Source: Selaginella tamariscina
Taxonomy: Eukaryota > Streptophyta > Lycopodiopsida > Selaginellales > Selaginellaceae
Length of the DNA: 64,000 nucleotides
Direction: 5' to 3'
Assembly: GCA_003024785.1 (NCBI GenBank)
Contig: PUQB01000148.1
Coordinates: 1-64,000 of the forward strand
Shown: piece by piece, positions 7,366 to 43,784 of the stretch
Numbering within the stretch: the first letter of the stretch is position 1
Layout: each line of letters opens with the position of its first letter
Made by a program: the position numbers and the translations under genes
The notes under the pieces: model-generated
What the model saw: the letters and a program-made list of their open reading frames with translations, nothing else
What the model was told of the DNA's origin: nothing
Database searches by the model: none

Positions 7366-7395
7366 TTAATGCAAGTTGTAACTAAAATGGGCATG
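7366..7395 (-). repeat. 30-bp terminal motif of module C
   Basis: This 30-bp string (TTAATGCAAG...GGGCATG) is identical to 31,296-31,325 and closely matches the reverse complement of 22,309-22,336. In all three places it lies downstream of a gene unit whose upstream end carries a palindrome array. AT-rich DNA rich in GAATATTC follows it on the gene side. I infer a shared element terminus. Confidence 0.6.
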
Positions 7396-7887: not shown

Positions 7888-10800
7888 TTAAGCTTCAGAA
7901 AACATACATTCCCTTGCAGTTTTGTTAATCGTGACTTTATCAACGCTTCTTGACATCCACCCATATCGAATGGATTTAACATTTATAAAACATGCTGGGT
8001 CTTTTTGATTGGGAGACCATGTTTTCTCTAGGCATCCATTATATCTTTCGCTCTCCTTCTCGTGTCGCCTTTTTTGTGGTTTGAACCATGCAACCTTAAC
8101 AATACTATTTTTTGTGATTACTTCAGGTGTGTCGATAATTTGACCCATCCAAATAGGCTGATTATATGACGCATCTGGAGTAATGAGAACCATCATTAGT
8201 TTTTGAAGATCCTTGCAGCAATCAAAGTATGCTTTAGGTTTTTGGTTCCTTTGTCCAACAAAGTGTGGGGTTTGCACTTCCACATCACTACTGGCTTCTA
8301 TGTCGTCTGTGCTCAGTGATGTCATTTCAATCTCCTCTCGCCACCTTGTTTTAGGCCAGAAAGGGTGTTGCAATTCTGTACTTGTGACAGTAGGCCCTTC
8401 CAACTCTCGAACAACAGTCTCCCAATAGTTGACCACATGCTTATATAGTTCTGAGTAACCAGTTGCCTTATCAGAATTCTTTGGCATCGATTTTTGAACC
8501 CATGCCACATATTTTTTGATGCCATCAATAATAACCTCTTGTTCCTTGAGCTGGGCACTCAATGGAATAGGGTCTGGTTGTCCTTCTGGGAGAAGTGGCT
8601 TTCCATCCTCTCCACTTTTGAAGAGCATTAAGCCCTCTTTCGGTAACCACTCCTGCTCTGATGGCCGTAACTTGTACTGCATAATAGGTATACCATCTCG
8701 TATGGAGAAAAAGAATTGTAGCGGCACAAGGTGACCAACTAAAGAATCACTCCCTTCTTTTATATACTCCTTGAGAAATTTTTTGAAGTCTGGCACCTCA
8801 GTCACAAGCAAAGCACAACTTTTTTTGGAGATGCAATTTTCAAAAAGATTCATCATATGCGGTAAGGTAAGTGCACTTGTCCTTTTTGTAGAGTTGGAGA
8901 CCTTGCTGAAGAACGCATCAATATCTTCATGAGTGTGACCAACCATAAGGAAACTGAGCGTGATTGTTTCAAACACACCTTTGGCAACAAGCATTGACAA
9001 GTATGCTAGCACATATCTAGAAAATAAAAGTAAGTATGAGCTTGAGAAACCCTTAAGTAAAATGATTTACCTATTTTTGTTCTCGCCTGCACAATTATCC
9101 ATCTGTAAAAGCAAATGACGAGGAAGCTTATTTGATGTTGAGGACACATGTACACTATTTGAGCTAGATCCCTCCACTGAACCTGAACTCTCAACAGGGC
9201 CATCTTTTTTGTGCAGGTTGCTGACAATGCCTCTCATATTCCCAAGTAGCCTCAAGTGCAGACGTGTTCATGAGAGCATTATGTAAAGGTTGAAGGTGTT
9301 GTTTCTTCACTTTGAGATCACTGATAGGACTTGTCTGTGAGTGGGCTTCAAGGTTTCTGAAACACATGGCTAACGACCCAATAGTGAAATTGGAGTCGCT
9401 AGACCAATGTGGAAGTGAAAAGTGTCCATATGACTCACAACCGTGTCCATGTGTTAGCACACCTGTCAAGAAATCGGAAGTTTCATGACATTTCCAAGGC
9501 ACTTTGGTGTTGCAAAGAGCTTTGGAATGCTGGTCTTTGAATGATCCATCTTGTCATGGATCAAGCACAGGTACTCTGATGGGCGTGACACAGAAAGCAT
9601 GCGGTGTGCATAGTACTGAGACCGCAAGTTTGTTGTGCAATCATGTGGGCCTCCATCTTCCTTTGAATGGTAGTGATCTCCACCAAGGTTTTTGCACAAG
9701 CCTCTGCAGCCTTCAATGATGTACAAGTGTCACACTTAGAAAAGCTAGAGTGTTTTGCAATCTCCACATCCTTAAAATGAGTATTCCATATGTTGTTGAA
9801 GGTACCAGTGCAGATTGCTTGGAGCCCCATCAAACTGAGGCACTTGTTCACATGTTCACACAGTTTCAATTGAGTGTAGATTGAAGGAAAACCTTGAGAT
9901 TTTCCCTGACCCCTGCATTTGTGGTTCGGCATTTGTGAGGCATCCTGTCTGCATTTGCTTCCACAAAAGCCTTGAGTATCTCTATGGCTGCCATGATGTG
10001 AGAGCGGGTTTTGACCAAGCAGTGTTCCCATGAACTGAGGTTCGCGCTCCATCTAGCCACTCATCCCTCCGACGGTAGAACGTGGTCTTTGGGATCCCGT
10101 ATATACTGTACCAAGCTTTGAAGCAGATGGCCACCTTATTAAATACCATGGATGTACTCTGATAACCTGTGTCCGAGGCCATTCCATCAATACACCCAGT
10201 TAGTGCAGCATATACAAACTCATGCCTTTGCTTTTGGGTGAGCATACGAAAGACATGTCTACATTGGGTAATTTCATTCCGGTCTGCCATCTGACAACAC
10301 TTCTTCTTGCAACAGTCAATCGTGGAAATGCTCGTAACACTTTCGGAAGATGTAGGATCCATCTTTACCCTCTTGCTGAAACTTGCAGGGGAAGATCTAC
10401 AACCCATGAATCGCCTTTTTCTTACAATAGGACCAATGCAAGGAACCTCTTCAAATATGAGTTGTTCTTCCGGGTTGTTATTATTGAAATCCAACCCAGA
10501 ATATGTTGAACCATCTTGCCGTCTTAATTCAGATGTTCGCCACCTCACGAGGGATCCAGGATACAATGTGCCATTAGGTGAAACCTCTGTCACAACTACA
10601 CCCACGAAGTCGGACCCTAGTTTCTCTTCTGACACTGCTTCCATTGGATTTATAGCTGTGATGATGCCTCTTCCGACTTCAATCTCACGAAGAAAGAGAA
10701 TCACCTCATCCATACAGCAGGCAAGCCATCATCTGGTAAACTCGTGCTACTATTTGTTTGTGACTCTGCATATTTGTGTCAGCCTTGACTTCATCCAAAT

Positions 10801-11011
10801 TCCACAATACAGGAGAACCCTCCTCAAATTCCATTCCCAGAACCTCAACATGCTTGTAAATGGTGTTCACCCATACGTACACACAAGATCCTTGGGAAAT
10901 ATTGTGACATGATGCATTATTATCTCGAACTTCCACAGTTCCAGTGCCAACTATCTCGTTGTTCCGAAGAAGACATACTTTATCTCCAGTATTAAACATA
11001 TTGTCCTGCAC
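7888..11011 (-). pseudogene. DUF7869-type RNase H-like / transposase-like gene, frame-broken
   Basis: The last exon (9,016-7,888) is open and encodes about 375 residues, starting RYVLAYLSML and carrying GHTHEDIDAFFSKVS. The exon before it ends QMDNCAGENKN, and a 55-nt GT-AG intron (about 9,017-9,071) joins them in frame. Further upstream on the minus strand are HDKMDHSKTSIPK, a KCDTC segment, YGIPKTTFYRRRDEWLDGAR and an N-terminal block from 11,011. The order of a D-containing motif, a DNCxxENKN motif and a GHTHEDID motif is characteristic of the DUF7869 family of eukaryotic transposon-associated proteins. The 5' two thirds need several frame changes (near 10,710, 10,040, 9,560 and 9,190), so the copy is probably dead or has more introns than I can place. 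A splice acceptor at about 11,012 implies a lost or distant first exon. The palindrome array starts 140 bp beyond it. Confidence 0.7.
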
Positions 11012-11150
11012 ATAAATAATTGTATTATTTATGATATCTGTTTATGCAATATTTCTAAGAAATCTGAATTACGGTTACTTAATAATATGCATATGCAATA
11101 ATACATAATTATGTTTAGAGATAATATCTCATGTTTGATTAATACAACTG

Positions 11151-12015
11151 ATGGGCGGGATTAATCCCGCCCACGAATCCCTCCGACGAGGAACGGTCGG
11201 CGGGATTAATCCCGCCGCCGACTCAACCCCTTCGGAGAGAGTCGGCGGGATTAATCCCGCCTTGGACTCCTCCGACAAGGAAGAGCCGGCGGGATTAATC
11301 CCGGCCTCTTCCTCCTCGGGGGAGTCCGGCGGGATTAATCCCGCCGCCGACTCCCCTTCGGAGAGAGTCGGCGGGATTAATCCCGCCTTGGACCCCTCCG
11401 AGAAGAGCCGGCGGGATTAATCCCGCCGCCTCTTCCTCCTCGGGGAGTCCGGCGGGATTAATCCCGCCGACTCTCTCCGACGAGGAAGGGAGTCCGGCGG
11501 GATTAATCCCGCCGACTCATCCTCGCCGAGAGAGTCGGCGGGATTAATCCCGCCGGACTCCCTTCCTCGTCGGAGGAAGAGGCGGCGGGATTAATCCCGC
11601 CGGCTCTTCCTTGTCGGAGGGAGTCCAAGGCGGGATTAATCCCGCCCACAATTCTTACGACGGGGAATGGGTGGCGGGATTAAACCCGCACATAACTCTC
11701 TCCAAAACTATGATTTCAAAGAGATCTCGGGATAAATCCTGTCCCCAAATCTTTAAAACAGGGAAGTGGTGGCGAGATTAATCCCGCCACCCCTTCCCTG
11801 CCTCCTAAAATGGTTGGCGGGATTAATCCCGCCGACAACTCTTTCTAATAAATTCTGGTAACTCTTCATCAGTTGAGAAGGTTATCGACGGGATTAATCC
11901 CGCCACTCTTTTTCAGTGGCGGAGAAGCATTGCCCGGGAGATGGTGGCGGGATTAATCCCGCCACTTCTTCAAAGAGGCGAAAAAGAAATGGCCGGATTA
12001 ATCCCGCCGCCCCGG
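11151..12015. repeat. Palindrome array 1
   Basis: About 19-20 copies of the 18-bp palindrome GGCGGGATTAATCCCGCC. Core starts I can place are 11,154, 11,199, 11,244, 11,288, 11,328, 11,370, 11,410, 11,451, 11,496, 11,537, 11,584 and 11,629, a spacing of 40-47 bp. Decayed copies follow to about 12,007. Spacers are GC-rich variants built from GACTCC, TCCGACGAGGAAG and CTTCGGAGAGAGTC. Some appear in both orientations. The block contrasts sharply with the AT-rich DNA on both sides. Confidence 0.95.
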
Positions 12016-13520
12016 TTAACCTAGAATATTAAGTTAAAAGGATATTTAAACGGATAAATCCCTAACGGAATATATTATAATCCTAATGCATTTCTAAACC
12101 CCTAAATTGTAATTTTAAGAGAGAATGTAAGAGAGTGAATCTTAATAAGTATTTTTAAATTTGTTTATAATACTTACTTGTAAACAGCACTGAAGGCGCC
12201 GTGCTTTCCTATAAAGAATAGCACCCAATTTAATCTCGCTCCTGAGATGATCACTATGAAGAAAAAAGAAGATCTAAAGAGTGAAAAATACAGAAATGAA
12301 GAAACCCTTGCCGGAGAAAGAACCAGATCTGAATTTGAGTGGGAAATTAAATGCATTTTCAAATTTACATGTCAGACCGACAATACATATGTCAGAAATT
12401 CAAATTTTTTAAAAAGAACAGAAAATAAAATTTAAGATGAGTTGACACAAATATCCGACACTCTGACATATATACTCTCCAGTTCCAATGAGTATTTTAA
12501 AATTGCATTTAATGTTATTCAAGTGATTCAAGCTGTTTAATATTACGAAATTTTAGACTATATTCTACATTCTTAGTATTCAAGTATATTTATATTATAT
12601 ATATATATATAATATATACTTATACAATAAATAAATTGATATATTATTATGTATCATTTAAAATATATTCATAGTCTGTTTATTATTATTATTTTCTTAA
12701 TTACTCGAGTATTTAGTTTTCATTTCCTAGTATCAATGGGATATTCTTTAATATTTTATTAATATTTGAAGAATATTCTAATATTAAACCTGATTATCAT
12801 AATTAAATTAGTCTTGTTCTTAATTATTGCAGTAATTATTCTACATTTGTATATATTAATGGGATTTTCTCAATTAATTTGTTATTATTTCAAGAATATT
12901 CATGTGTTAAACCTTATTATCAATATTAAATTAATACACACTATGAACATATTTTAAATTATACATAATAATACATCATTTTATCTAATATATAGTCATA
13001 TATAGTTTTAATAATATATATATTAATATCATTTCCTTAATTACTTGAGTAATTAATCTTCTTTATATTAATGGGATATTCTTTATTATTTTCTTATTAT
13101 TCCAAGAATATTCCAATATTAAACATGATTATGATAATTAATTTAGTTAATTATTTGAGTACTTAATTTATATTTATATGGGATTTTCTCAATTAATTTC
13201 TTATTATTTCAAGAATATTTCAATGTTAAACCTTTTTATCAATATTAAATTAATATATATTATTAAAACTATATAATGTTCTTAATTATTCGATGTTTAT
13301 TTTGCACACATATATAAACACAATCATAAATTTACACACGCATTACAAGAACTTACAAAAACACATATGCACACACATGCACAACCCTAAACCAAACTGA
13401 AGAAATAGGTTGCTTCTTTATTGAAAACATCATGTTCAACGCATGTATGATATATGTACTCAATCTGTGTGACTGTATGTAACACATTAAATTTACATGT
13501 GTTATATTAAGCTTGTTGGG
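12016..13520. repeat. AT-rich block with diverged repeats carrying GAATATTC
   Basis: From about 12,700 to 13,260 a unit of roughly 110-190 bp recurs about four times in diverged form. Each has an ATTACTYGAGTA-like string, ATGGGATATTCTTT or ATGGGATTTTCTC, a CAAGAATATTC-like string and AACCTKATTATSA. The palindrome GAATATTC also recurs at 7,470-7,530 and 14,210-14,290. No coding region is credible. Confidence 0.6.
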
Positions 13521-13523
13521 AGC

Positions 13524-13553
13524 AAACCCTAAACCCTAAACCCTAAACCCTAA
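13524..13553. repeat. Interstitial telomeric repeat 1
   Basis: Four tandem units of CCCTAAA, the plant telomere repeat read on the C-rich strand. They lie in AT-rich DNA just before the microsatellite block. Confidence 0.9.
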
Positions 13554-14340
13554 TATGTAACACAATGAATTTATTCATGTATTTATGTATGTCTGTGTGT
13601 ATACACGTGTGCATGTATATATGTGTACTCTGTATGTATATATGTGTACTTTCTGTCTTCTCTCATACATACACACCATGCATGATCCATGTTAATATGT
13701 ACTGTCTCTCTTCTCTCAAACATACACACCATGCATGATCTATAATATGTACTCGGTCTCTCTAATATTATGTACTAATATGTATGTGTGTATAATACAC
13801 ACCATGCATGATCCATAATATGTACTGTCTCTCTTCTCTCATATACTATGTATGTATATCTGTGTATAATATGTGTAAGTATATATGTGTACTAATATAT
13901 GCAATGTGTAAAAAATAATTTTTCAACACTCTCTCTTCTCTCATACATACACACCATGCATGATCCATCCTAAATCCAAAACCCTAAACCCTAAACCCTA
14001 AACCCATGTAATATGTGTGTATGTCTGTGTGTATACACGTGTGTATGTATATATTATGTGTATTAATATATGCAATGTGTATGTATGATGTATTGATACA
14101 CATGAAACTTTAACACTCTCATGGACACACACATGTTAAATCCCTGCATGATTTATATTTTTGAGGTGTATGTGATACACCCACGCACACGCACGCGCTA
14201 ATAATATAATGAAAGAATATTCGTTTAGGGCGAATCTATATTTTATTCTTTTTAGGGTTTAAGTATATTCTCAGAAGGAATATTCTATTAGGGTTGATAT
14301 ATATATTTAATTCCTTTAGGATTTAGGTATATTCTTAGGG
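13554..14340. repeat. Microsatellite-rich stretch with a recurring CT/CA motif
   Basis: The string TCTCTCATACATACACACC followed by ATGCATGATCCAT recurs whole or in part near 13,650, 13,715, 13,800 and 13,925, separated by TATGTGTA-type simple sequence. A second set of CCCTAAA repeats is embedded at 13,979-14,006. No gene is seen. Confidence 0.7.
13979..14006. repeat. Interstitial telomeric repeat 2
   Basis: About three and a half CCCTAAA units, preceded by degenerate CCTAAATCCAAAA. It has the same orientation as the tract at 13,524. Confidence 0.85.
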
Positions 14341-14391
14341 TTTCAAGAGGCGGCGGCTGTGAAATCGGCGGCGGCGGCTGTGCACACAGGT
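14333..14391 (+). other. Possible isolated first exon with telo-box
   Basis: TTAGGGTTT (the complement of a plant telo-box) is followed by a GC-rich stretch of GGCGGCGGC triplets and then CACACAG|GTGAGA, which looks like a splice donor. This resembles the 5' end of a plant housekeeping gene. The following 1.1 kb is simple sequence with no exon I can recognise. If real, it is a stranded fragment. Confidence 0.25.
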
Positions 14392-14693
14392 GAGATCTGT
14401 GTGTGTGTGTGTGTGTATGTATGTATATATGTATAGGAGTGTGCGTATAATTTTATTTATTAGTTTTATCTCTCGCACACACACGCACACTCCTGTGTAT
14501 GTATATGTGTGTGTGGGTGTGTGTTTGTTTATCTGTATGATTTTATTTGTTTCGCTCACACACGCATACACACGATATACATATACACATATATATATAT
14601 ATACCTATATACATATATACATACATATATTATGTGTACCAGTATCTGTAAATTTTTTTTTATTGATCTTGCTTTACACACACACACACACAC

Positions 14694-14730
<37 letters not shown>

Positions 14731-14795
14731 TATGTATACCAGTATCTGTAAATTTTTTTTTATTGATCTATCTCTCCCACACACACGCGCACTGC

Positions 14796-14875
<80 letters not shown>

Positions 14876-15570
14876 ATCAATGCATATTAACAAATAGTAT
14901 ACAACACTAGTTTATATATATGCTTATATATTCATATGGGTTATATATCTATATACACACATATATATATGTGTGTGTTTTTCTGTATAATTTTATTTAT
15001 TTATTAGTTTTATCTCTCGCACACACACGCACACTCCTGTGTATGTATATGTGTGTGTGTGTGTGTTTGTTTATCTGTATGATTTTATTTGTTTCGCTCA
15101 CACACGCATACACACAATATACATATACATATATATATACCTATATACATATTACATACATACAACACTAGTTTATATATATGCTTATATATTCACAGAC
15201 TCTCTCTCTTTCTCTATAGATTATATATCTATATACACACATATATATGTGTGTGTTTATCTGTATAATTTTATTTATTTATTAGTTTTATCTTTCGCAC
15301 ACACACGCACACTCCTGTGTATATATATATGTGTGTGTGTGTTTGTTTATCTGTATGATTTTATTTGTTTCGCTCACACGCATACACACGATATACATAT
15401 ACACACATATATATACCTATGTACACACATATATTAGGTGTACCAGTACTGTATAATTTTATTTATTTATTTATCTCTTGCACACACACGTACACTACAT
15501 ACATACATACATACATATAATATATATACACACACACATATATATGTGTGTGTTTTTATCTCGCTAAGCC
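14392..15570. repeat. CA/TG/TA microsatellite block with larger repeated unit
   Basis: Dense (TG)n, (CA)n and (TA)n tracts. A larger unit repeats at about 14,430-14,640, 14,980-15,170 and 15,250-15,440. It combines CTGTATRATTTTATTTRTTT, a CTCGCACACACACGCACACT string and a CATATACATA tail. The long plus-strand ORFs here are read-through of simple repeats and are not proposed as genes. Confidence 0.85.
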
Positions 15571-15578
15571 CCTCGAGC

Positions 15579-17160
15579 GGCGGGATTAATCCCGCCGCTA
15601 TAGGTTTATAGCCTCGGCGGCGAGATTAATCCCGCCGCTATATGGTTGGGGTCATGGCGGCGGGATTAATCCACCGCCGAGGCCCTTCAGGCATGGGTGA
15701 GCGGCGGGATTAATCCCGCCGCCGAGGCCCTCACGCAGGCTATGGGCGGCGGATTAATCCCGCCGCTCTACGACAAACCGAAGAGCGGCGGGATTAATCC
15801 CGCCGCCCATGGCCTGCGTGAGGGGCCTCGGTGGCGGGATTAATCCCGCCGCTCATCCATGCCCTGCGCGGAATGCGGCGGGATTTATCTCGCCGGCAAT
15901 GGCCTGTGTGAAGGTTCTAATGGGCGGGATTAATCCCGCCGGATTCCGCGCAGGGCATTTACAGGGGATGGGCGACGGGATTAATCCCGCCGCCGAGGCC
16001 CCTCACGCAGGCCATGGGCGCGGGATTAATCCCGCCGCCCAGGGAATTCACGCAGGACATGAACGGCGGGATTAATCCGGCCCCACGCTCATGCCCTTCG
16101 CGGAGGGCGGCGGGATTAATCCCGCCGCTCAGGCACTTCCGCGGATATAAGCGGCGGGATTAATCCCGCCCCCACCCATCCCTGTTCAAAAATGCCGCAG
16201 CCAATATATATGTGTGAGCGCATGATTTACGAGAGGGCGGCGGGATTAGCCTCCGAACCTTCATTACCCGGTGGCGAGATTAATCTCCGAACCTTCATTA
16301 CCCCATTGGTATGTTGAATCAATTCCGACTAACTCTGTCTGAGACGGAGAAGGTTTACAAAATACCAATGGAGGGAACCGAGAAGGGTGGTGGGATTAAT
16401 TTAACCATCCCTTACATGGTGGGCGGGATTAATCCCGCCGCGTACGCATGCCCTGCGCGGAATCGGGCGGGATTTATCCCGCCGCCATTGGCCTGCCTGA
16501 AGGGCCTAGGCGGCGGGATTAATCCCGCAAGATTTCGCACAGGGCATTGGCGTTCGGCGGGATTAATCCCGCCGACTAAGGCCCGAGTGAAGGGCCTGGG
16601 AGGCGAGATTAATCCCGCCGACGCCAATCCCTGCTCGGAATCGGGCGGGATTTAATCCCGCCGCCATTGGCCTGTCTGAAGTGCCTAGGCGGCGGGATTA
16701 ATTCCGCCCGATTCCGCGAAGGGAATTGGCGTCCGGCGGGATTAATCCCGCCGCATAGGGACCAAGTGAAGGCCCTGGGCGGCGGGATTATCCCGCCGAG
16801 TCTTCAATGCCTGTTGGAGGAATGAATCCGCCCCCTTCCTTTGTTTTCCTCCATTGGTGAGTCAGACCAATCCCAAACGTTTCTGTCTGAGACGTAGAAG
16901 GTTTCAACATACCAATGGAGGGGAACTGGGAAGGGTGGAAATTCATTTAACCATCACTTACATGGTGGGCGAGATTAATCCCGCCTCCTTTCTGGAGTCA
17001 CTGAAGGGGTGTGAGAAATAAATCCTGCCCAGTTCTCTCTGAGACCGAGAAGGGTGGCAAGATTAATTCCGCACTCCCGTTCAAGGCCTCCAGAAAGGTG
17101 GCGAGATTAATCCCGCCCACTCTTTCAGGAGGCATTGAAGGGGTGGCGAGATTAATTTCC
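15579..17160. repeat. Palindrome array 2 (start of module A)
   Basis: About 30 copies of the same palindrome, clean from 15,579 to about 16,800 and decayed after that. Spacing is mostly 39-48 bp in the clean part (cores at 15,579, 15,619, 15,659, 15,703). Spacers form a family distinct from array 1, built from GCCGAGGCCC, CTCACGCAGGC, CATGCCCTGCGCGGAAT and GAAGGGCCT. One spacer occurs in opposite orientations at 15,720-15,746 and 15,804-15,830. The array ends about 330 bp before the ParB-like gene. Confidence 0.95.
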
Positions 17161-17494
17161 ATGTGAATATATATGTGTATTAGTATATATAAGTTGCATA
17201 TCTCATTTTATTTACTTTTATCATCTTATCATAATATTTCGAGTAAAAGCTAGGAATCTATGTAAAACTGTCCAGAGCTCACATTTGTGGTGGTTCTAAA
17301 ACGAAATGTTATCTTTCTTTTGCACTAACACAATGTGAGCTTCGGACAGTTAATTACGTCTACTTCTCTCTGTGTATTATTTTTGTATATTCGGGTTTAT
17401 ACAAGTGTGTGTGCGTTTTTTATATAATTTATATTTATAGTGTATTATTTTGCAGAAGGACGATTTGATCAAACAAGGAGATCGAGTCATTAGT
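17161..17494 (+). promoter_or_regulatory. 5' region and probable leader intron of the ParB-like gene
   Basis: The part from 17,161 to about 17,310 is conserved on the minus strand at 43,650-43,800, next to array 3. It holds a 20-bp inverted repeat (17,266-17,285 and 17,332-17,351). A TATTTTGCAG acceptor-like string at about 17,455 precedes AAGGACG and the first ATG at 17,495, so a 5' UTR intron is likely. Confidence 0.4.
17266..17351. repeat. 20-bp imperfect inverted repeat (hairpin)
   Basis: The arms AACTGTCCAGAGCTCACATT (17,266) and AATGTGAGCTTCGGACAGTT (17,332) pair at 18 of 20 positions across a 46-nt loop. Module B keeps a diverged first arm, but the second is deleted there. Confidence 0.6.
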
Positions 17495-20400
17495 ATGGAG
17501 TCGTCGTCAAATTCTGGGTAAGAATTAAAATAAAATCTGTTATACTCGGATACTTGAACTAATCATTTTTGTATTCAGATGTGGAATTGAAGTGACATTA
17601 AAGACAAGGCAGGAGAAGAGATGGGCAGGGGGATTTTGGAATCAACTTGGCCATATTTTAAGATAAATGGAAAGCGCATTGGAGCAACCATGGTTGCTGT
17701 CAAATTAACCTCTGTCACATCTCATGGACAAGCAAAACAATGGAAAGTAGATTCGCTAGTCAAGCACCGAAAGCAGGCTGCGAACCCAGATTGGACGATG
17801 CTCGACAGATATGCCTTGTTCCATCCAATGTCACGTTCTCGGATCCAGAGGTCGTCAGTTACAACATTAATCTCGGGTGGTTTTGTCGACTTGTGGATAA
17901 TGACGTTCACGTGTTCACTAATGATGTTGACCTTGGAGTTCTTCTTCAACTCAACGAAAGCCCATCTATGGAGGGGATCCATCTGGATGTCTACTTCGAA
18001 GATCTTCAGACTCATCGAGTAGGTGTATTGTCAGGAGATATTGTTTCACAATACAAAAATCAGCAAGTGGAGCAATCGTCCCTCTTCACATTGAAGAAGA
18101 ACACAGCGACATCATAAGGGAGATTGAGAAGGTGGCTCGGTCTCAGGTTCTCTACAGATCCACGTTCAATTTGCTTAGGAGCTTCGGGAGCTGGAGAGTG
18201 TGCCGAGAACACTAGAACAGCTGCAGTCGGGGATCACACATGTTGATTCGGATCGCAAAAGAAAATCATCAATCGTTTTGTCAGCTGCACCTGTGGCATC
18301 TCATGCTGCAATAAGTCACAAGGAAATGATGTTGGATGATAAGATTTATCCTTGTAGGGTTAAATATTGCAGCGTCAACCCAAACTTCAATTACAGGCCA
18401 CTCAACCAGGAACGTGTAGCTGAGCTCATGGAGAAGATGAAGGACGACAATTCTTATACCGTTCCACATAATGCTGTTTTGTGTCCATACTATGAAAGAA
18501 GGAAGGGTGCTGACAAAGTCTGGATCACAACACCAGAACAACTCATGAAGATTCAGACGGAGAATAAAAGATCTATCAAGTACTACATCATTAGTGGCCA
18601 GCACACAATAACGGCAGCCCAACGACTTCTCGATGAACACAACAAAGGAACGATGGCAACAAAACTTTCCGAGCATACCCGTGAGAAGCTGACAAAAAGA
18701 TCGGCGTTTTTAGCTAAGCCGAATCTCACAATCGAGCAGTACCATAAGTTATCGGCGGAATGGGACGCTGCCGACACCAACCACTACAACAGCAAAATAT
18801 GGGAGAAGTTTAAACACACGCGAGCCGTGTGGGAATCTCTTCAGCGACCACAAAGAGCTACCGCAGGGAATACACAATCTGCGGAATACCGGGTAAGCAA
18901 ATTGTTTGGGCGGGATTTATCTCGCCGGTATATTAATCTGTCTTTTTCCTCAGAGAGTTGAAGAAATTGCAGCAGTTGATTTTGCCCAGGTGGGCGGGAA
19001 GGAAACATCATTTCTGATGATGTTGATTTCTTGCCCCGAAGATAGGATCTTTGCCAAATGGTTGGGGATTATGGAATCCTTTTCAAAAGGAACACTGAAG
19101 AAGAAGCAGACAAGTGAAGGGGAGCCCTCAGAAAAGTCTGCAAAGAAACCCAGTAAGACGCCGAAGGCTAAGTCTGTTCAATCTACAAAGGATGTAGACA
19201 ACGATTTCAAGCTCACATGGTTGAAGCCTTTAAATGGAACAACGATGGAGGAGATGGAAGTCTTGGCTGATTTGGTGATCGATGGCAAACTACAAATCAA
19301 TAACAGCAGCCCAACCTCTCCTTTTCATCTCAAGGCAATGGAGTTGAAGACGGTCAGGCATTTCAAGGAGTGGTTGGGAATACACTGCCACAAACTGGGT
19401 TGGACCTCGACTTCAACATATGAAGAGGTTAGCAAATATTTGCATGTGACGAACGATGATATGCTTGTCGAATGGGTGAACCAATCGGAAGATCTAGGCA
19501 AGAATCTATTGCACGCCAACGCCAAAAAGGAGAACATTGGGATGACGCCTTCTCTTATGGCAGTCCTTCAGCAGCGGAGAACCGAATTGAACCTTATAAA
19601 GGAGGATGCTACGAATCACGACAAGCCCTACAGATGTTTGTTGTTAGATTCGGAGACTTTATGGGGTAACATCACTGCTTGTAGGAAACCGTTTCAATTG
19701 TTCGTGATGGATCGGCGGGTGTCAAAAAATCTTTCGACAGATAGGGCACTAGAGGATCTGGTGGAGAAACTTAGCCGTGCAAGCATATACATAGAAGGTA
19801 TTTATTATTGAATTCATGCTTGCGCTCTTCACTGATACCTACTTTTTCAGGTATTTATTTCTTGATTCTTGCTCATGTCACCGATACTTTTGCCTTCGCC
19901 TTCGCCAAGAAGAATAGACATCGTTGGACAGGATTTTATATGAACGGATGCTAATCCCAAGTGCATTGATACTGTTGTTCACTTGGTTGTTAGGAATGCG
20001 CCAAACAATTTCAAGCTTCCAAATGACTGGCCAGGCATCTGTTTGCACTCCAACGGCCCTGAACCTCCATCCGATACACCGATAGGTATGAGTGACGTAT
20101 TCGGCAATGTACGTTATCCAAACATTACAAGTCAAGCGGCACGGAGCATCGTCAACTTGATCAGGGGTCCTCACAGTGATGCGTGGGTTTTTGACTACTG
20201 CACTAGGGGGTCCGTCTTGAAGGAGTGTTACCTTCGGCATACATGTGTGTTTGCCGTTGAGAAGGATAAGACCATGGTTGAGGACCTGAACAAGTGGATA
20301 GATTGGGTCTCAACTGAGTACCCCAACGATTCCATAAAGGCGTATTTGAGAAAGTTCCCTCCAGATAAGTGCGATAGCTCTGAAGGTGAATCTGGTTCAA

Positions 20401-20597
20401 TCTCGGAGTCTGAGAACGAACATCAATCAGATATTAGACCGGAAGTTATCTCGAGGAGTACAGAACATTCGCACACTCCAGGACCCATGGAAACATCAAT
20501 AGAAGATGCAGAAGATCTTGAACCATCTCACAAGCGGCTTAGACCTTCTTCGCCTCATTCAGAAGGTAATAGCGAAGAAGAATTGATAATGAATTGA
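17495..20597 (+). CDS. ParB/Srx-like protein with methyltransferase-like tail (near-intact copy)
   Basis: A multi-exon gene. Exon 1 (17,495-17,517) has a clear GTAAG donor. The middle block at 17,740-18,090 reads FSDPEVVSYNINLGWF and LVDNDVHVFTNDVDLG. The block at 18,200-18,892 has a ParB/Srx-like core: NPNFNYRPLNQERVAELMEK followed by YYIISGQHTITAAQRL. A 61-nt intron (18,893-18,953) leads to an exon with a Lys-rich linker and LFVMDRRV. A 53-nt intron (19,798-19,850) leads to the C-terminal part, where DAWVFDYCTRGSVLKE and CVFAVEKD resemble the last (motif I) strand-loop of N4/N6 DNA methyltransferases. The canonical DPPY and DPFxGxG residues are not conserved. An acidic, Ser-rich tail follows. 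Compared with module B, one extra G near 19,946 breaks the frame. Frame changes near 17,650, 18,070 and 18,150 are unresolved (short introns or decay). The domain calls are inference from motifs. Confidence 0.55.
18909..18926. repeat. Single palindrome relic inside an intron
   Basis: GGCGGGATTTATCTCGCC lies within the 61-nt intron 18,893-18,953. It is a 16/18 match to the array core. The same intron of the module B copy keeps a more decayed version at 42,366-42,383. Confidence 0.8.
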
Positions 20598-20854
20598 TAG
20601 AGTGATGAATAGTTGTAAATGAGTGTAACATAAGGCATTTTTGTATATTTCTTTTATATTTGTACAGAAAATAAATTCTCAAGGATTAATGAAGCTTTTA
20701 GTTCAAACATGGGTCACACATTAACAAGGTAAATAATATACCTTGATAATTTTAAGGTCAGCTAATTATCATTTTGCAGATGTAATGAAATAATTGAGAA
20801 CATGGATTTTCAGCATTGCCATGAGGTAAGAGAGGGGTTTGGCGACAATTTCTT
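20598..20854 (+). other. Gap with probable 5' exons of the phosphatase-like gene
   Basis: Two stretches have convincing splice borders: one ending ACATTAACAAG|GTAAAT near 20,729, the other between TTTTGCAG (20,779) and GCCATGAG|GTAAGAG (20,826). Both are conserved on the minus strand at 40,500-40,690. I cannot join them to the main frame cleanly. Confidence 0.35.
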
Positions 20855-22063
20855 GTGCCACATGTCAGAATGACAGAGTTCATGCAGGAAATGGATAATA
20901 ATGCAGCTCAAAACATCGTTACCATGGGGGCCACTTCAGTTTTTGCATCATCATTTTTATTGGCTTCAGTTCCGAAATCAATTTCTTCAGCGCATGCAAT
21001 ATCTGAATCTTGTAAGGATGATGTACAATTAAATGATGAAGGGATAGGCAACGAAATAGTGGCAACGGATAAATGTGAAAGGGAGCAAACAAGTGATTTG
21101 CAAAGTATTCAAGAGGCAACGCTATCTCATGTTACTCATGGCCATATTGTGTTGTTGGATGTCAATGGTGTTCTGCTTCATCGACAAAGGCCCGAGGATA
21201 GAAAAACAGAAATCAAACAAGGAGATTTCATTCCTTGTCATGGTAAATTTCGATATGATATTATTTTTCGTCCAGGGTTGGATCGTCTCTTTCAAAAGCT
21301 TAAGGAGATGGGTGCGCTTGTGGGGATTTGGTCATGCATGCAGATTCATAACTTAACACCGCTGTTGAGTTTACTTAAGAAACATTGTAGTGTTGCAGAA
21401 GAGGTGATTCGTAAAGATTGGATTTTTGACCAGCGAATGTGTCATAAACCTCTCGAATTTCACAATATAAGAAAGGAAAGCAAGCCATACTTCTTCAAGA
21501 ATGAAAGAATAATTGGGACTCATGGGGAGATCAGTCGCTTAAGGATAACGAAGAATGCACATATCTTAGTAGTAGACGACTCTCCTCAGAAGGCTATGCT
21601 CAACCAAAACATTGCTTGTATTCATCCAATCACTTTCGATCCATATTCTGATATCGATATCATGGATGAGCTAGTGAACTACTTGGATACGTGCCTCAGA
21701 AAGAAGAATCTCGAAAATTTTTGTGAGCAGTATCCACCGTATCATACATTTCCTGAAGCTTTTCTTTCTCGTGATATTGAATTTTATAAAATGAAGGATA
21801 GCAACCGGGCGCTTTATAATATTATTCTTAAGGAACGTCAGTTTTTAGATGAGCCTTTATGCAGACCTTCTCTTATCACATCTTATGTATTAACAAGGAT
21901 GGCAACTCCCAATTGCATTCGTGAGAGTGTTAAGTGGTGGCAACAACATCAAGATATTGACCAAAATGATTTGATTAATCCGGAGAGTGATGATTTAGGA
22001 CAAATTGAAAAGATTTCTTTGTATGATAGAAAGAAAGTATTTATAAAAAAATTAACATGTTGA
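20855..22063 (+). CDS. FCP1/SCP-like (HAD superfamily) phosphatase-like protein
   Basis: An intact 402-codon frame. Residues about 97-105 read VLLDVNGVL, the HAD motif I position. The nucleophile Asp is kept, but the second Asp of the usual DxD is Asn, as I recall for several plant FCP1-like proteins. RPGLDRLFQKLKEMG and GIWSC follow (motif II region), then ILVVDDSPQKAM (motif III/IV). These three in order mark the NLI-interacting-factor/FCP1 fold, whose members dephosphorylate RNA polymerase II CTD or other phosphoproteins. With DxN the activity is uncertain. The C-terminal third (EQYPPYHTFPEAFLSRD, VKWWQQHQ) is not one I recognise. The gene lies 257 bp behind the ParB-like gene on the same strand, and both recur together in module B. 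An upstream short exon may add residues, so the start at 20,855 is the longest open choice, not proven. Confidence 0.8.
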   Translation: MPHVRMTEFMQEMDNNAAQNIVTMGATSVFASSFLLASVPKSISSAHAISESCKDDVQLNDEGIGNEIVATDKCEREQTSDLQSIQEATLSHVTHGHIVLLDVNGVLLHRQRPEDRKTEIKQGDFIPCHGKFRYDIIFRPGLDRLFQKLKEMGALVGIWSCMQIHNLTPLLSLLKKHCSVAEEVIRKDWIFDQRMCHKPLEFHNIRKESKPYFFKNERIIGTHGEISRLRITKNAHILVVDDSPQKAMLNQNIACIHPITFDPYSDIDIMDELVNYLDTCLRKKNLENFCEQYPPYHTFPEAFLSRDIEFYKMKDSNRALYNIILKERQFLDEPLCRPSLITSYVLTRMATPNCIRESVKWWQQHQDIDQNDLINPESDDLGQIEKISLYDRKKVFIKKLTC

Positions 22064-22308: not shown

Positions 22309-22336
22309 CATGCCCACTTTAGTTACAACGTGCATC
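22309..22336 (+). repeat. Terminal motif of module A
   Basis: CATGCCCACTTTAGTTACAA and the next bases match the reverse complement of the motif at 31,296 and 7,366 with about three differences. The homology with module B stops here, and the segment duplicated at 55,551 begins immediately after. Confidence 0.6.
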
Positions 22337-25189: not shown

Positions 25190-25280
25190 TTTACCACCAT
25201 TGAATTGGTAGAGCATGTTCTTCTAAGGGAGGCACATTTTAAGTGATGATGTACCAGAGTGGTTTGACCCAGAACTTTCA
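25190..25280 (+). repeat. tRNA-like, SINE-like sequence
   Basis: ATTGGTAGAGCATGTTC resembles the tRNA D-arm/A-box region. About 55 bp on, GTGGTTTGACCCAGAAC resembles the B box; the duplicate at 58,531 keeps the better GGTTCGACCC. The acceptor stem does not pair well, so this is a tRNA-derived relic and not a tRNA gene. Confidence 0.4.
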
Positions 25281-31295: not shown

Positions 31296-31600
31296 TTAAT
31301 GCAAGTTGTAACTAAAATGGGCATGATACATGAAAATGGGAATATAAAATAAATTATTAATTAATATTTAAGTTTTAATTATTAATTAACTATTTAATTA
31401 TATATAATTAAGCCTTAAATTAATTAATTAACAATTTAATTCTTTAATACCTTACTTAGTAAGGAATTCCTAAAATATTTTAGAATATTCATGTTATTCT
31501 TCATTGTAGAAATAGTTTATAATAATTAAAAAATACTATCAAACATAATTACAAATAATCATTTACTTACTAACATGCTAATATATTTATAAATACTTTC
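31296..31600 (-). repeat. Module B: terminal motif and 3' flank of the phosphatase-like copy
   Basis: The reverse complement of 22,036-22,336. It has the 30-bp motif at 31,296-31,325, the TTAATTAA tract, TTTTAGAATATTC and the last codons of the phosphatase-like frame before the TRIM insertion. Confidence 0.85.
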
Positions 31601-32136
31601 TGTCATAGTTCTAACCTGGTGGGTTGACTACCTGGGTAAAGATTGTGGGATATATAAGTAAAAAGACTTAAGCGTAACTGAGTCATCATGATCAGGGGTC
31701 CTTTCATAAACATTAATTGGCCCTTTGCATAGTTAGCATAAGAAAGATGGAAGGTTCTGACATTTGGTATCAGAGTGGTCCCGGGTTCAATTTTCATCAG
31801 GGGATGAATTTTGAGTAAAGCTCAAGCCACTAAGGTTGGCGCACTTGTCCTTGTCTAACTAAACCCCTCGATCCCATGTGTACATGGGTTGCGAGTCAAG
31901 CGTGAGTAGAAACGCCTCTGCTCCACCTTCTGGAGGAAGGCATAGTAGCAACTTCTTGAGTTTTGTGTGGAGAGTGTCATAGTTTTAACATGGTGGGTTG
32001 ATTACTTGGGTAAAGATTGTGGGATATGTGGGCAAAAGACTCAAGCGTAATTGAGTCATCATAACCAGGGGCCCTCTCATAAACACTAATTGGTCTTTGC
32101 CTAGTTAGCATAAGGGGAGAGGGAAAGGTTGTGACA
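31601..32136 (+). mobile_element. Complete TRIM (miniature LTR retrotransposon)
   Basis: Two 162-bp LTRs (31,601-31,762 and 31,975-32,136), each TGTCATAG...TGACA. The primer-binding site TGGTATCAGAGTGG starts at 31,765, complementary to the initiator tRNA-Met 3' end. The internal part is only 212 bp and non-coding. A perfect 5-bp target duplication CTTTC flanks it (31,596-31,600 and 32,137-32,141). It sits in the last codons of the module B phosphatase-like gene and must be mobilised by proteins of another element. Confidence 0.95.
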
Positions 32137-32141
32137 CTTTC

Positions 32142-32475
32142 TCCTTAACCATACAGAGAAATCTCCTTATTTTGTCTAAGTCATCACTTTCTAGATTAAT
32201 CGAATATTAGTCAATATATTTATGTTGTTGTCCCACCTAAACACTCTCACGAATGCAGCCATCCTTTTTAATACATAAGCTGTGATAAGAACATGATTGC
32301 ATAAGGTTTATCTAAAACATGATGTTCCTTAGGAATAATATTTTTAGAGCGCCCGGTTGCTGCTCTCCTTCATTTTATAAAATTCAAAATCACGAGAAAG
32401 AAAAGCGTCAGGAAATGTTTGATATGGTGGATATTGCTCACAAAGTTTTCGAGATTCTTCTTTATAAGGCACGTA
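32142..32475 (-). pseudogene. Module B phosphatase-like gene, C-terminal part
   Basis: The reverse complement matches 21,695-22,030 of the intact gene (EQYPPYQTFPDAFLSRDFEF is readable), with stops and shifts. It is cut off on the right by the long LTR element. Confidence 0.85.
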
Positions 32476-34189
32476 TGTCAGAGTTTTAAACCCGAAGGGC
32501 CAACACGTGGCTGCCAAAGTGGCCATTTTGGCATCATCACCTTATGTGAGCAACGCTAAGTCTTCCAAGATAATCCTAAGAGTCTGACTCAAAGGCCTAG
32601 AAGACTTAGAGTCCTACCTAAGTCCTCTAGAATGACCATCCCCTGAACCCTAAAGGATAACCCGAGTAGACTTTAGGATCCTATCCCAGTAGACCTAGGC
32701 AGGCTCATGCCTTAACCCCACAAAGGATATGTGTCTCACACATACCCCCCGTGACAAGCCAAGGCATCGTCACTTACCCCTTGAGGAATCACCCTCATCC
32801 GGGAGTACAACCCCTTTAGGGCGACAAGGGGTACCCTGAACCACAACTAACCCTAAGGGTTTGGGTGGTCAAGTCATATTCTAGACCTAGGGCTAGTACT
32901 TAGTGAGGATACAAGTGTGCGCCGTAGGCGGACACGAGTGTTCTATTAAGTAAACTCCCTAAAGCTAGGTTTGGAAAATCCTAAGTACATGACCTTGCGA
33001 GTGCTTCACGAAAAGGCTCCTGCTAACAAGCTTAGGTTGTTCAACCCTTGGATTCCAAGGAGGACACTCCCCTAGCCAAGTGTGCCTAAGCACACCTGGT
33101 TATGAGACCTAACCTCCTTGAGCAAATGCCCAAGGCTTAGCTCCCTAGTGCGAGCACAAGCATGTCTGTTTGTCATAGTATCCAACCCTTGGCGATAAGC
33201 CCATGACACAACCCCAAAGGATGTGCCTTAGGCGTTGTATCGCGTGATATCTAGCCCAGTGTCACATCTTCATGTGACACTGCCTTCCCCAATGTGGGTT
33301 ATCATGCCATAGCCCTTAGATTCAAGAGTTGCACCAAGTGCCACAAACATGGCTCCTAAATGCCAACTCTAGAACCCCTCAATTATCCCTCAAGACTCGA
33401 TAAGGAAACCCTATCAATCAAGAACCCATGCCCACAGTTGGACAAGGACACGAATGTGCCCTGGTTAGCTGTAAGTGTTGCTCCTAGCTTGACGTGGAGG
33501 AGGAGGCTGGAGACAAGCCTCAACCTCTGCTTCTTGGAACGTGCATCCCGACAAGTCCTCCCATGCATGGATTCGCCAACGTTAAAGGTAAGCTACCCTG
33601 AAGATGGGACGTACCCCTATCGTCTGGAAGTTAGGGCGGCACAACAGAGGGTTGTGCCTTGACGACACAAGCTAGAGCTTGCACCGAGAGAAGAGTAACG
33701 AGCTTAGTCATGAACCCAGGAACCCTCACTCCTACTATTTATGTGACGGACCCCCCCCCCCCCCCCTCCCCTGTTTTTCTATATGTGTAAGTGGGCTGGC
33801 ACTAAATTAGCTAGCCCCTTAGTTAATGAGATGAGTTTGCACACTAACCCCTACCCCTAAACCCTACCCAAGGGGGTGGGTGTTTTAGGGCGTGGGTTAG
33901 GGCAACCCTAGGGTTAGGTCAACCCTAGGGGTGTTCCTAACCCTATTTAACATGCCAAACTCATTTACTAGGACGTCAAAATCGGGGGTGGGTTTTCTAG
34001 AAGGTAAGTGCTACCTTCGCTTAGAGTTTCTCGCGACATTTAAAGATAGCCGGCCGGATTACCCCTAAACACCTAAGTGCACTAAGCGGGGTTGTTTCTC
34101 ACTACATCTAGGGTCCGTCAACATAGTACAGTAGGTAACAACAGTCAATGTCCAAAGTAAAGGGCTGAGTCATAGTAAAAACTATGACA
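32476..34189 (-). repeat. Left LTR of the LARD-like element
   Basis: 1,714 bp. Contains a run of C near 33,750 whose length differs from that in the right LTR, and a CCCTAAACCCTACCC string near 33,855. The small ORFs inside (such as 33,360-33,662) recur in the other LTR and are not gene-like. Confidence 0.9.
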
Positions 34190-37100
34190 CACTCCCCGCC
34201 TTTGAAAATGTCAATGTCCTTGTTGACGTTCAACTTTTGGTTGGAGCTAACCAAAAGTTCACATAAGTTTTATTACCCCCCTTGCATTACGTGAAACCAA
34301 GTACTTCAGAACCGTTATTCACTGAGTCGTAAACCCAGCTGCCAAAGGCACCACCTGCGATATGAAGTCACTTAAAGACCTTTTGCACGTCTACAAAGTC
34401 TGTCACCCGACACACACAACACTGGTTAATTTCTTTACTTAATTAGAATTTATATTGAAGGCCTCTAGTTAGTGTTGTTGCTGGCCCCTTGGTTAATAAG
34501 AAATAAAGACTTGCTTTTTTCTTAATATTAAACGCTATTAACGACCCTGTCGTCTTAGCACACAACAAGCACTTTGACGTCCATCTCAAGTGCTTAACCA
34601 AACACCTTCACGTTTCTCCAATTGTTCCACATTTCCACATGTCACAGTATTATAGCCTCACTTTTCTGTATCCCTCAGTGTTTCTCATTACCCCTTTACG
34701 TAAGGGTCTGCTACTATACCTATCCCTTGTTAGTATATAGTTACGTCAGACTAGGTATGAGACTTTATCGGAATCAAGCTCTTTTCTGATACTAGAGTAC
34801 TATTCCCGAAACCCTGTTCTTTGTAAACATGTCAATCTAGCAGAGGCGATCATAGAGGCGCATGGCTATACACATGTATACAACAAGGTCATACCAATCT
34901 GCCAAATGCCATCCACTTGGTGTGTCATTAATATAATTTATTCCCGATAAGAATCAAATTGAGTCAAATCTACAACCAAGTGTGATAGCTCTACCATTCG
35001 TCTTTCGCAACCTAACTTGTACTTTTCATAACACCGACCAGTTCAGGGACCAGATAAGCTAACATACCTTTCTTACAAACTAATGTGGAAACCAGGAAAT
35101 TCAACCCATCTCTAATGCCTCAATCGATGGCCTTAGATAACACGTCTCTTAATTGTCACTTTTATTGTACTCATCCCCAAAGAGCACATATACTAGATGC
35201 CGTTCAACACTTCCTAACTCTTTATCTCACTAAGTTTAAAAATACCAAATTTCAAAACTTGTTTTTCATAATAAGAATTCTCTAAACTCAGAATACTGTA
35301 CACCTCCGTAACATTATATTTATTTCCAACTCTTAAATTGATTTCGTAAATGTTTCTTAACACTATACTGAAGTATAACATTTTCACTAATTCGAGCAAT
35401 TAATGTTTTGACAAACATCTTTTTAAACTAATCCTTTTTTATAAATAGTTGCAATTTCGATATTGATACTCTCGAATGAATAATGATCGTTTCAACGTTC
35501 AAATCCTAAGTTTACCAACTAGCTGTTATATTAACGGATATAAATTTACAATCATATCAATCTATTGAAATGCTAACTATAATATAGACATGGTTTTAGT
35601 TTACATGAACCAAACTTCAGTTTTGAGATGGAACTATAATGTTATAACAGTATTCCGAGGAACTTGTTCAGAGACTAAGAGGAATCATGAATTAGTATCT
35701 GGTTCATCTAACTGATTTAGTAAGATATTATTTTTCACACTAATGTTATTATGACACCAAAGTGCCACCTATAACTTCATGTTTCAGTTATATCTCATAA
35801 TTCAGTAGATCCCTTCCAAACATGAATAAGATATTTAGTTCAGTATGTTAAACTAAGATACACTATTCATTCTAAACACCTAGTAATCCAGAAAGTACCA
35901 CATTGCCCCTTAAGCAATGTATTGAGAAACGCCTCATTTTTAACTAACTTGAAAATATGTTTCAAGTTACTACACTAAGGTACTGCCTTACCAAAGTGTT
36001 AAACTCAAATCTGTTTGATTCTTTATATTTCATGATTATGGCCACCTTATGTGATCATAACCAAGTTTCAATATTGAGCGCTTCAAACTCAATATTCAAG
36101 AGATTTTATACCATACTTTGCCAAGTCATTTATAACCAATCTTAAAAAGATTGTCATAAATTTTGCCAAAGTCTAGAATATAAATATCTCAACAAATGAG
36201 ATGATAGGAAACCTCATATTCTCGAATCGGATATTAGACCATACATTAAGAACCTTGAATTATGATCATCAAAAAGGTACACCAACTTCTTGAGTTAAAT
36301 AAAAATCGATATCGTACTTTCACAAATATTAAACTCAACTCAAGGAACACCATCAGACCTTGAGATAGAACTTGTAATAAACTCAAGAAACACCATCAAC
36401 CTTCAAATAAGAAAAGTTCTACTTTTCAATATTCCAAGGACTGAAAATACATACTTTATTTGTTCTTTAAGTGCCCACATTTGCGATCATGATGCAGAGT
36501 AAGAAACCATCTTTTAAATAATCGTATTCGACTCCAAAATGAAATTGATATTGATTTTAATACCAACTTTTAATTTCATCGAATAACGACTCTCTAAGGA
36601 AGTACATGCATTTAAACTTCCAATGGAAATCTAATTGTTATTAGTTCATTGGTAGTTCTCAACATAAGTTATTAAACTTAGCAAGTTTCCTTACTTACTC
36701 GATAAACTAAGTGGAGAATCCCAAATCATGCTCTTCTTAAGCAAGGAATCATCCTTGTTCAAGAGCTTATCCCCTTATTACAAACAACGTTACAGATTCT
36801 AAAATTAAAGAGTTAACAATGAAAATGCATAAGTGTGCGCCGAACGCCTTCACTATGCAAGTCCTTCATTACTTAATAACCTGAAAATGTAAATGTATGT
36901 TTCAACATTACTTTTTATGATAGATCACACCATCCATCCAAAAGCTGCATTGATAGGGATGCAACATTAAATTTGTTTACTGCCAAAATCTATTATTTAT
37001 TTCATTCTTATGATCCCACATGAGATAACTTCATAATAAGTTAGTTGAGCTAGCTAACTTGAATATAAAGTGCGCGCTTACAACCAACTAAAGTTTTAAG

Positions 37101-37936
37101 TTGTACTTTGTTCAAATTAGGTGACTTGAACTTAGTAAACTATTTCACCTAATGTTACTTGTAACTAGCGTCATCAAAATATTGCGAACATCAGACAATA
37201 CTTTGATTACATTGGATCTAAGAACCAACTGCTTAACACATTTATTATATGTTAATATTTGACATTTGTTGTATTATAAGTTCATCACCAAAGTTTGCTT
37301 CTGGAGTTACACTTTGGAAAACATGCACGATAATGAGAGCTTATTTTACACTTTATGTTAAAATGTAGTGTTCCCTCTTATGTTTAAATATGCCCCTTTT
37401 TAAAGTCAAAGATGCACATTTGAACATAAGTCTTTCCCCGTTTAAACACTATAGTTGGATCCGATATTGAATCTTGCCCTAAGTCAAAACTCAATGAACA
37501 CTGTCTATTTCAAATCATGTGTTATCCCAAATTCAAACACCTTTAAAGAAAAAGAAAATTTTCAATAATGTGTAGACTTAGGATATCGTAAGACACACCT
37601 CACAAGACTTAGTTTGTAAGCCAGAACAAACTAACACGCCACGTCTTGTGGAGTATATGGTAAAGTAATATGAACATCCATAAAGTAAAGTAACCTGGCA
37701 TACAACTTGGAAGTTGCCTTCCAAGTGCTACCTTTGACATTTGAGTCCATAACTCACACCCATTTATGAAGTAGGTGTACTCTGAAGAGTTATAGACCTC
37801 AAGACCAACTCTCCATGCAGAATTCAGACGTTAGCCAAAAGTGATAGAGTACTTCAAGAATTTAGAACTAACTAAACCCTAAAACACACCACACTTTAGG
37901 CAGTCCTACTGACTAGAGAATTGCTCCGCTACCAAT
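34190..37936 (-). other. Non-coding interior of the LARD-like element
   Basis: AT-rich, with many short repeats of the AACTTCA/TTGAACTTAG kind and no long frame on either strand. I see no gag, polymerase or integrase motif. Confidence 0.7.
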
Positions 37937-39634: not shown

Positions 39635-40470
39635 ATGTATCCAAGTAGTTACTAGCTCATCCATGGTATTGATATCAGAATATGAGTCGAAAATGATTGG
39701 ATGGATACAAACAATGTTTTGGTTAAACATAGTCTTTTGAGGAGAGTCGTCTACCATTAAGATATGTGCGTTCTTCATTATCCTTAACTGATTGATCTCC
39801 CCATGAAGCCCAATAAATCTTTCATTCTTGAATAAGTATGGCTTGCTTTCCATTCTTATATCATAAAATTCAAGAGGTTTATAACATATTCGCTGGTAAA
39901 AAATCCAATCCTTACGAATCACCTCTTCTGCAACACTACAATGTTTCTTAAGCAAATTCAACATCGGTGTCAATTTGTGAATTTGCATGCATAACCAAAT
40001 CCCCACAAGTGCACCCATTTCCTTAAGCTTTTAAAAGAGACAGTCTAACCTGGGTGAAAAATGATATCATATCGAAATTTATCATGACAAGGAATGAAAT
40101 CTCCTTGTTTGATTTCTTTTTTTCTATCCTTGGGCCTTTGTCAATGAAGCAAAACACCATTGACATCCAACAACACAATATGAACATGGGTAACAAGGGG
40201 TAGCGTTGCCTCTCGAATACTTTGCAACTCACTTGTTTAGTCCTTTCACATTTATTTGTTAACACTATATTGTTGCCTATCCCTTTATCATTTACTTGTA
40301 CATCATCCTTACAAGATTCAGATATTGCAGGCGCTGAAGAAAGTGATTTAGGAACTGAATACAATAAAATGGTGATGTAAAAACTGAAGTGGTCCCCATG
40401 TTAAAAAAGTTTTGAGCTGCATTATTATCCATTTCCTACATGAACTTGTCATTCTGACATGTGGCACAAG
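39635..40470 (-). pseudogene. Module B phosphatase-like gene, N-terminal part
   Basis: The reverse complement aligns with 20,855-21,680. ILMVDDSPQKTMFNQN and GALVGIWLCMQIHKL are readable in one frame and SMVFCFIDKGPRIEK in another, so frames are shifted. The TSD-like ATGTA at 39,635 marks the retroelement junction; the rest of the gene resumes at 32,475. Confidence 0.85.
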
Positions 40471-40724
40471 AAACTTTTGCCAAACCCCTCTCTTACCTCA
40501 TGCAATGCTGAAAATCCATGTTCTCAACTGTTTCATTACATCTGCAAAATCATAGTTAGCTAGCCTTATAATTATTAAGGTATATTATTTACCTTGTTAA
40601 TGTGTGACCCATGTTTGAACTAAAAGCTTCTTTAATCCTTGAGAATTTATTTTCTGTACAAATATAAACGAAATATACAAAAATGCCTTATGTTACACTC
40701 ATTTATAAATATTCGTCACTCTAA

Positions 40725-43640: not shown

Positions 43641-43784
43641 AAACCACCACAAATGTGAGATTTGAACAATTTCACATGGTTTACTGGCTTTTACTCAAAA
43701 TATTATGATAAGATAATAAAAGTAAATAAAATGAAATAAGCAACTTATATATACTAATACATATATACATTCACATAGAAGGGG

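Follow-up and report, generated by a model that had tools for sequence, protein, structure and literature searches.

A palindrome array of Selaginella tamariscina is part of a DNA transposon and may control its two divergent genes

Long runs of palindromic units have been described in both a plant transposon and a bacterial plasmid. For the soybean element Tgmt*, the portion of the description available to us reports 24 subterminal repeats within 732 bp of the right border, which can form 12 palindromes, in a repeat region with GC-rich and AT-rich parts (PMC2613891). The sopC locus of the F plasmid, according to the available part of its source, consists of twelve tandem units of 43 bp; every unit contains a 16-bp inverted repeat to which a ParB dimer binds (PMC9178275). 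Within what these partial accounts cover, the two represent the closest layouts in print to the arrays analyzed here; the Tgmt* repeats differ in position and termini, and sopC in the kind of replicon.

As far as the Tgmt* account extends, the locus resembles CACTA transposons (En/Spm, Tgm) in its many palindrome-forming repeats, its GC-rich and AT-rich parts, and its placement in a large element with terminal inverted repeats (TIRs) (PMC2613891). Unlike CACTA elements, its arrays are central between divergent genes, its ends begin with TGCAAG, and it carries a DUF7869 gene. It shares with sopC, as partially described, the tandem inverted-repeat units (~44 bp with an 18-bp palindrome here, compared to 43 bp and 16 bp; PMC9178275). 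In contrast to sopC, it is a eukaryotic transposon with two arrays, variable spacers, and a gene that has no ParB profile match. Likenesses also extend to TIR transposons with an RNase H-like DDE transposase, namely the TIRs, high copy number, invariant acidic positions, and fold matches, although the Foldseek E-values of the DUF7869 model are not significant.

The window, a stretch of 64,000 nucleotides of the S. tamariscina genome, contains 18 copies of the 18-bp palindrome GGCGGGATTAATCCCGCC at 11154-12008 (array A1; up to 2 mismatches, 13 of the 18 exact) and a further degenerate core at 11726. The palindrome array placed at 11151-12015 by the initial annotation is therefore real. The spacing of 40-47 bp given there applies to the left two thirds of A1, and in the right third, which is decayed, the distance between copies still present is 44-98 bp; likewise, the spacers are GC-rich only as far as ~11690. 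That annotation did not include arrays A2 and A3 or the lone core at 18909, which are further sites in the window (Table 1). At up to 3 mismatches, the window holds 58 core places, compared to none in 100 dinucleotide shuffles. The lone core, located ~1.8 kb from A2, is also present in five other loci (L081, L084, L086, L088, L090).

Table 1. Features of the transposon copies and palindrome arrays in the window.
Feature	Position	Strand	Details
Left terminal inverted repeat	7370..7395	+	26 bp, TGCAAGTTGTAACTAAAATGGGCATG; common end of element copies
DUF7869 (PF25273) transposase-like gene	7888..11041	-	Open pieces; frame changes between pieces in window copy
Array A1	11154..12008	.	18 palindromes with up to 2 mismatches and one degenerate
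AT-rich centre between arrays	12009..15578	.	GC 0.28; telomere-like CCCTAAA runs, CA/TA microsatellites
Array A2	15579..17162	.	Longer; core of A1, mostly other spacers; last units degenerate
Second gene	17495..22063	+	Start placed by eye; novel N-terminal part; frame broken near 18117-18179
Lone core, 2 mismatches	18909..18926	+	Likely in an intron of the second gene
NIF/FCP1-type phosphatase-like ORF	20825-22063	+	Part of second gene
Right terminal inverted repeat	22309..22334	-	TGCACGTTGTAACTAAAGTGGGCATG
Second element copy	31300..44818	-	Right TIR at 31300; second gene at ~39.6-43.6 kb; array A3
Array A3 (decayed)	43786..44818		Inside second, oppositely oriented element copy

It had also been proposed that the period of the array is close to four helical turns, which would place successive sites on a similar face of the DNA. 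Across 275 spacings from 11 loci, some of which are counted twice due to the overlap of L084 and L085, the median core spacing is 44 bp or ~4.2 turns; the residual averages 2.7 bp when a turn is taken as 10.5 bp. For A1 considered separately, cumulative phase at this period yields an R of 0.24, compared to ~0.21 expected at random. These two values do not support same-face phasing. Of six periods tried, 11.0 bp is the only one with a raised phase value in all three arrays (0.41-0.55).

Outside plants, the exact 18-mer was retrieved from 49 bacterial stretches and one viral stretch, none of which has an array of exact copies. Only one of them (L012) contains two copies, and by eye many resemble terminators or repeated contig-end sequence. 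No report of the core sequence was found in the open-access papers searched.

The arrays almost certainly belong to a TIR DNA transposon of ~14.6 kb that is present in up to ~1,750 copies. Its termini were located from copies that stop at one common point. In the window, the element is bounded by a 26 bp inverted repeat, one copy at 7370 and the other, which has 2 differences, at 22334; element ends begin with TGCAAG or TGCACG. The left repeat occurs at 3,501 places genome-wide (up to 2 mismatches; control 0) and a 33-bp form of the right end at 1,350 places (up to 1 mismatch). Pairing was assessed for 91 of the 100 left ends listed (up to contig C213) against the 100 right ends listed: for 44, a right end facing them lies within 30 kb, and 47 are unpaired. 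The paired ends are 13.7-15.1 kb apart in 30 of the 44 cases (median 14.6 kb) and at other distances in 14.

A genome-wide search for the 18-mer with up to two mismatches, the check suggested in the initial annotation, returned 59,903 matches in 300.7 Mb (1391 contigs), and the reversed pattern returned none. By arithmetic, 3,501 ends correspond to ~1,750 elements with ~34 cores each; copies seen whole between arrays have 38-47 cores (up to 4 mismatches), which is near this estimate. The family would occupy ~25 Mb, or ~8% of the genome, if all copies were full length. A 501-bp probe adjoining A1 yielded 1,654 candidates, and the best 40, which were scored and include the window's own, are all identical over 501 bp; some amplification is therefore recent.

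Flanking DNA differs between element copies. Target site duplications were sought by eye in four elements with both flanks: 3 bp fits a copy on contig C1 and, after a one-base shift of the boundary, a copy on C2, and neither the C3 copy nor the window copy shows one. A TTAA target, hinted at early by three of five ends, was dropped when it was found at 4 of the 100 exact ends listed. Assignment to piggyBac was likewise rejected, as TTAA lies directly outside only 4 of 13 ends read and these same 4 in 100. A large inversion with self-BLAST breakpoints at 22336 and 31299 was discarded because both points are element ends.

In the window copy, the arrays are 3,784 and 5,172 bp from the element ends and 3,571 bp from each other. 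This layout was compared with ten loci chosen for their arrays and not at random (L081-L090; five from C1, four from C2, one from C3); one 10-kb stretch not selected for arrays (L091) has no core. Matches of more than 1 kb between the ten loci and the window are 81-98% identical, except for two, at 68 and 72%, in the region of the array and centre. Five of the ten loci (L081, L082, L084, L085, L086) contain both arrays belonging to a single copy, 3.0-3.8 kb apart, and in L083, L087, L089, and L090 the second array is expected outside or at the edge of the fetched range. Wherever a fetched copy extends far enough to show it, and likewise in the window copy, the paired arrays flank the starts of the divergent genes. 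Exceptions to the layout are L088, which has A2 and the second gene without a matching centre on the left; L082, where other DNA replaces the DUF7869 gene; and L084/L085, where the DUF7869 gene of one copy stops and abuts the array of another.

In the window and the ten array loci, a sample of the 59,903 core copies in the genome, arrays of 9-28 units all lie within element-matching sequence. Satellite DNA was rejected on this basis, given that the arrays there are not independent of a mobile element. The initial annotation had taken the array for an undescribed satellite, which proves wrong in kind: it is internal to a multi-copy TIR element, part of a transposon and no new satellite.

Several other repeats accompany these copies. 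At L083 (3640-3780), the flank of one copy's A1 array harbours another element copy, and copies therefore nest in each other. A partial TIR sequence within the DUF7869 gene of another copy (L096, 1202-1280) may be a remnant of an insertion or rearrangement. In the second element copy of the window, no A1 or DUF7869 part was seen beyond A3. An insert at 32475-39634 in this copy is flanked by direct repeats of ~1.7 kb that are 93% identical, and is probably an LTR retrotransposon. What looks like another LTR retrotransposon, cutting off or abutting A3, spans 44836-50525 at the outer edge of A3, where a ~118 bp repeat pair lies beside the primer-site-like motif TGGTATCAGAGCC; we take the primer site to be of the tRNA-Met type. 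A second long repeated segment (22336-30392 and 55552-64000, 86-93% identical) has a match that starts beside the element right end, and contains a P-loop NTPase-like ORF (weak Pfam match, below cut-off) after PYG-rich repeats. In the AT-rich centre, the telomere-like runs are at 13524 and 13979 and the microsatellites are long.

The gene next to A1 encodes DUF7869, of which the Pfam entry says only that it is a domain of unknown function. The gene keeps HDKMD, QMDN, and VGHTHEDID motifs, and acidic positions of the protein are invariant. Database searches gave 48 hits, among which the organisms named are Calypogeia fissa and Riccia sorocarpa, both liverworts. These hits agree with a land-plant host, as do the telomere-like runs and the tRNA-Met-type primer site. 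Fold matches include Mos1, retroviral integrase, and TnsB (best VIA Z 7.9, under the trust level of the tool), in a list that also has rows that are not DDE-like (helicase, polymerase, BAH/chromo-type). The presence of the gene in an abundant TIR element suggests that DUF7869 is a transposase family. Foldseek gave no PDB match to the model at E < 0.001, with ribosomal proteins in the top rows and Mos1 tenth (E 0.71); there was no PDB sequence match, none was confirmed in viral contigs, and no report of DUF7869 or the VGHTHEDID motif was found in the open-access papers searched. A weak HTH-like segment lies near 10098 (HTH_psq, E 0.092, below its cut-off). The second gene has no homologs at E 0.001. 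One segment of it looks ParB-like by eye, and the gene has no ParB profile match in Pfam or NCBIfam.

We consider that the array is probably the 5′ control region of one of the two divergent genes of this ~14.6-kb transposon; for a control function of the arrays as such, which is deduced from sequence, the balance is about even. Each 18-bp palindrome is a predicted site for a protein dimer, composed of two GGCGGGATT half-sites. The binder would probably be encoded by the element; candidates include the product of the second gene and the DUF7869 protein, which has the weak HTH-like segment. With many sites per array, such a protein could act as a joint switch or autoregulator of the two genes, and perhaps also counter methylation. 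Selection would keep the core in the active lineage, and the spacers would be free to vary. Exchange between cores may delete spacers and, given that the core reads the same on both strands, can also invert and duplicate them. Inserted copies would drift neutrally, largely by C-to-T change. Since the arrays are located at the expected divergent promoters, 3.8 and 5.2 kb from the ends, they are unlikely to serve in end recognition, and we prefer shared control of both genes.

An unlikely but credible alternative is that the arrays are a neutral minisatellite hitchhiking in the transposon. The palindrome would then be a hinge for duplication and inversion, its copies alike through youth and turnover and unread by any protein. 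Comparisons of core and spacer bear directly on this. In core-anchored alignments, which favor a contrast between the two, the core of A1 differs in 322 of 6540 pairwise cells (~5%) and its spacers in 1937 of 11475 (~17%) across eight element copies; for A2, across seven copies, the values are 440 of 8094 (~5%) and 2037 of 15176 (~13%). The sampled copies thus bear out the earlier claim that cores are kept better than spacers, in both arrays. Gaps are about equally frequent in core and spacer columns, and so whole units come and go. Consistent with a minisatellite, divergence of the core between copies (4.9% in A1, 5.4% in A2) is no lower than that of the flanks (1595/37134 or 4.3%, and 479/14545 or 3.3%). 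Twins of A1 spacers are also both direct (11 of 18) and inverted (9 of 18) at 75% identity or more, compared to ~0 after shuffling.

Recent duplicates within arrays give a divided answer, with totals that take in two of three comparisons for A1, two of three for A2, and all three for A3. Those of A1 hardly differ (core 0/122, spacer 2/115) and the core of A3 decays as fast as its spacers (38/213 vs 34/218), both as expected for a minisatellite. In A2, however, the core changes less (4/122) than the spacer (18/129). The comparisons outside these totals gave 3/53 in core and 4/48 in spacer for A1, and 4/54 and 10/48 for A2. The apparently invariant AT centre of the A3 core (4/150) was rejected as a special feature, given that A/T sites in the paralogous flank also change less (6/109, compared to 11/42 at G/C sites).

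The consensus core is the same 18 bases in all five parts (A1 proximal, A1 distal, A2, A2b, A3), whereas most spacers of A1 and A2 are unalignable, and a neutral core should have drifted too. Between the spacers of A1 proximal and those of A2, best identities average 0.67, compared to 0.64 when shuffled. The outermost part of A1 has a few spacers that resemble those of A3 and of the gene-side end of A2 (up to 0.78); the arrays therefore have some history in common. In addition, the arrays hold their position within the element in the compared copies, which also speaks against a minisatellite. Inserted copies show no clear sign of ongoing selection, because core divergence equals or exceeds that of the flank and core and spacer of A3 decay alike. 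The argument for constraint on the core is its identity across unrelated spacers. Constraint in active source copies combined with neutral decay in inserted ones is what a transposon would predict, the constraint being the putative part.

It is very unlikely that the arrays are instead internal recognition sites on which the transposase assembles for excision or integration, like CACTA subterminal repeats. A precedent is provided by the palindrome-forming subterminal repeats in the right border of Tgmt*, as far as the available description goes (PMC2613891), and the gene adjoining A1 is transposase-like. However, at 3.8 and 5.2 kb from the ends the arrays are not subterminal, and the termini are neither CACTA nor CACTG; membership of CACTA (En/Spm) was rejected on these grounds. 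No tnp2 domain was found among the nine element ORFs scanned. A search for CACTACAAGAAA gave 5 matches, each with 2 mismatches, where 9.2 were expected by chance.

There is a slim prospect that transcripts spanning the arrays form long double-stranded RNA hairpins and thereby supply siRNAs by which the family is silenced. Single-strand folding is far above shuffles (z = -38 for A1 at 11154-11690; z = -24 for A2 at 15579-16170), and 38 of 47 changes in the decayed A3 core are C to T or G to A. Good folding is nevertheless expected from any palindrome array. Palindrome-preserving double changes are not in excess (3 seen and 3.02 expected in A3; 0 in A1 and A2), and the arrays have no Rfam match and no tRNA. 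Neither A1 nor A2 is short of CpG: observed/expected ratios are 1.03-1.11 in the arrays vs 0.41-0.77 in the rest of the element, which also counts in favor of the control reading. Self-complementarity of spacers is mild in A1 and A3 (combined z 4.3 and 4.7), and absent in the first part of A2 (0.8).

Least probable of all is that the element carries a centromere- or partition-like nucleoprotein system, resembling sopC in having a gene nearby with a segment of ParB-like look. The product of this second gene would bind the palindromes of both arrays and spread on or bridge them, linking copies, both ends of the element, or an excised circle in the manner of SopB on sopC; if true, a partition-type system would exist within a eukaryotic transposon.

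Shared control of both genes by the arrays hence remains the reading that we prefer, as a prediction from sequence. DUF7869, a domain of unknown function, is now tied to an abundant TIR element. The genome contains ~60,000 copies of the palindrome, which in the examined copies form two arrays within the element. Owing to this unusual layout, promoter control through dense homotypic sites can be tested directly. The genome could also be rearranged when arrays exchange with one another.
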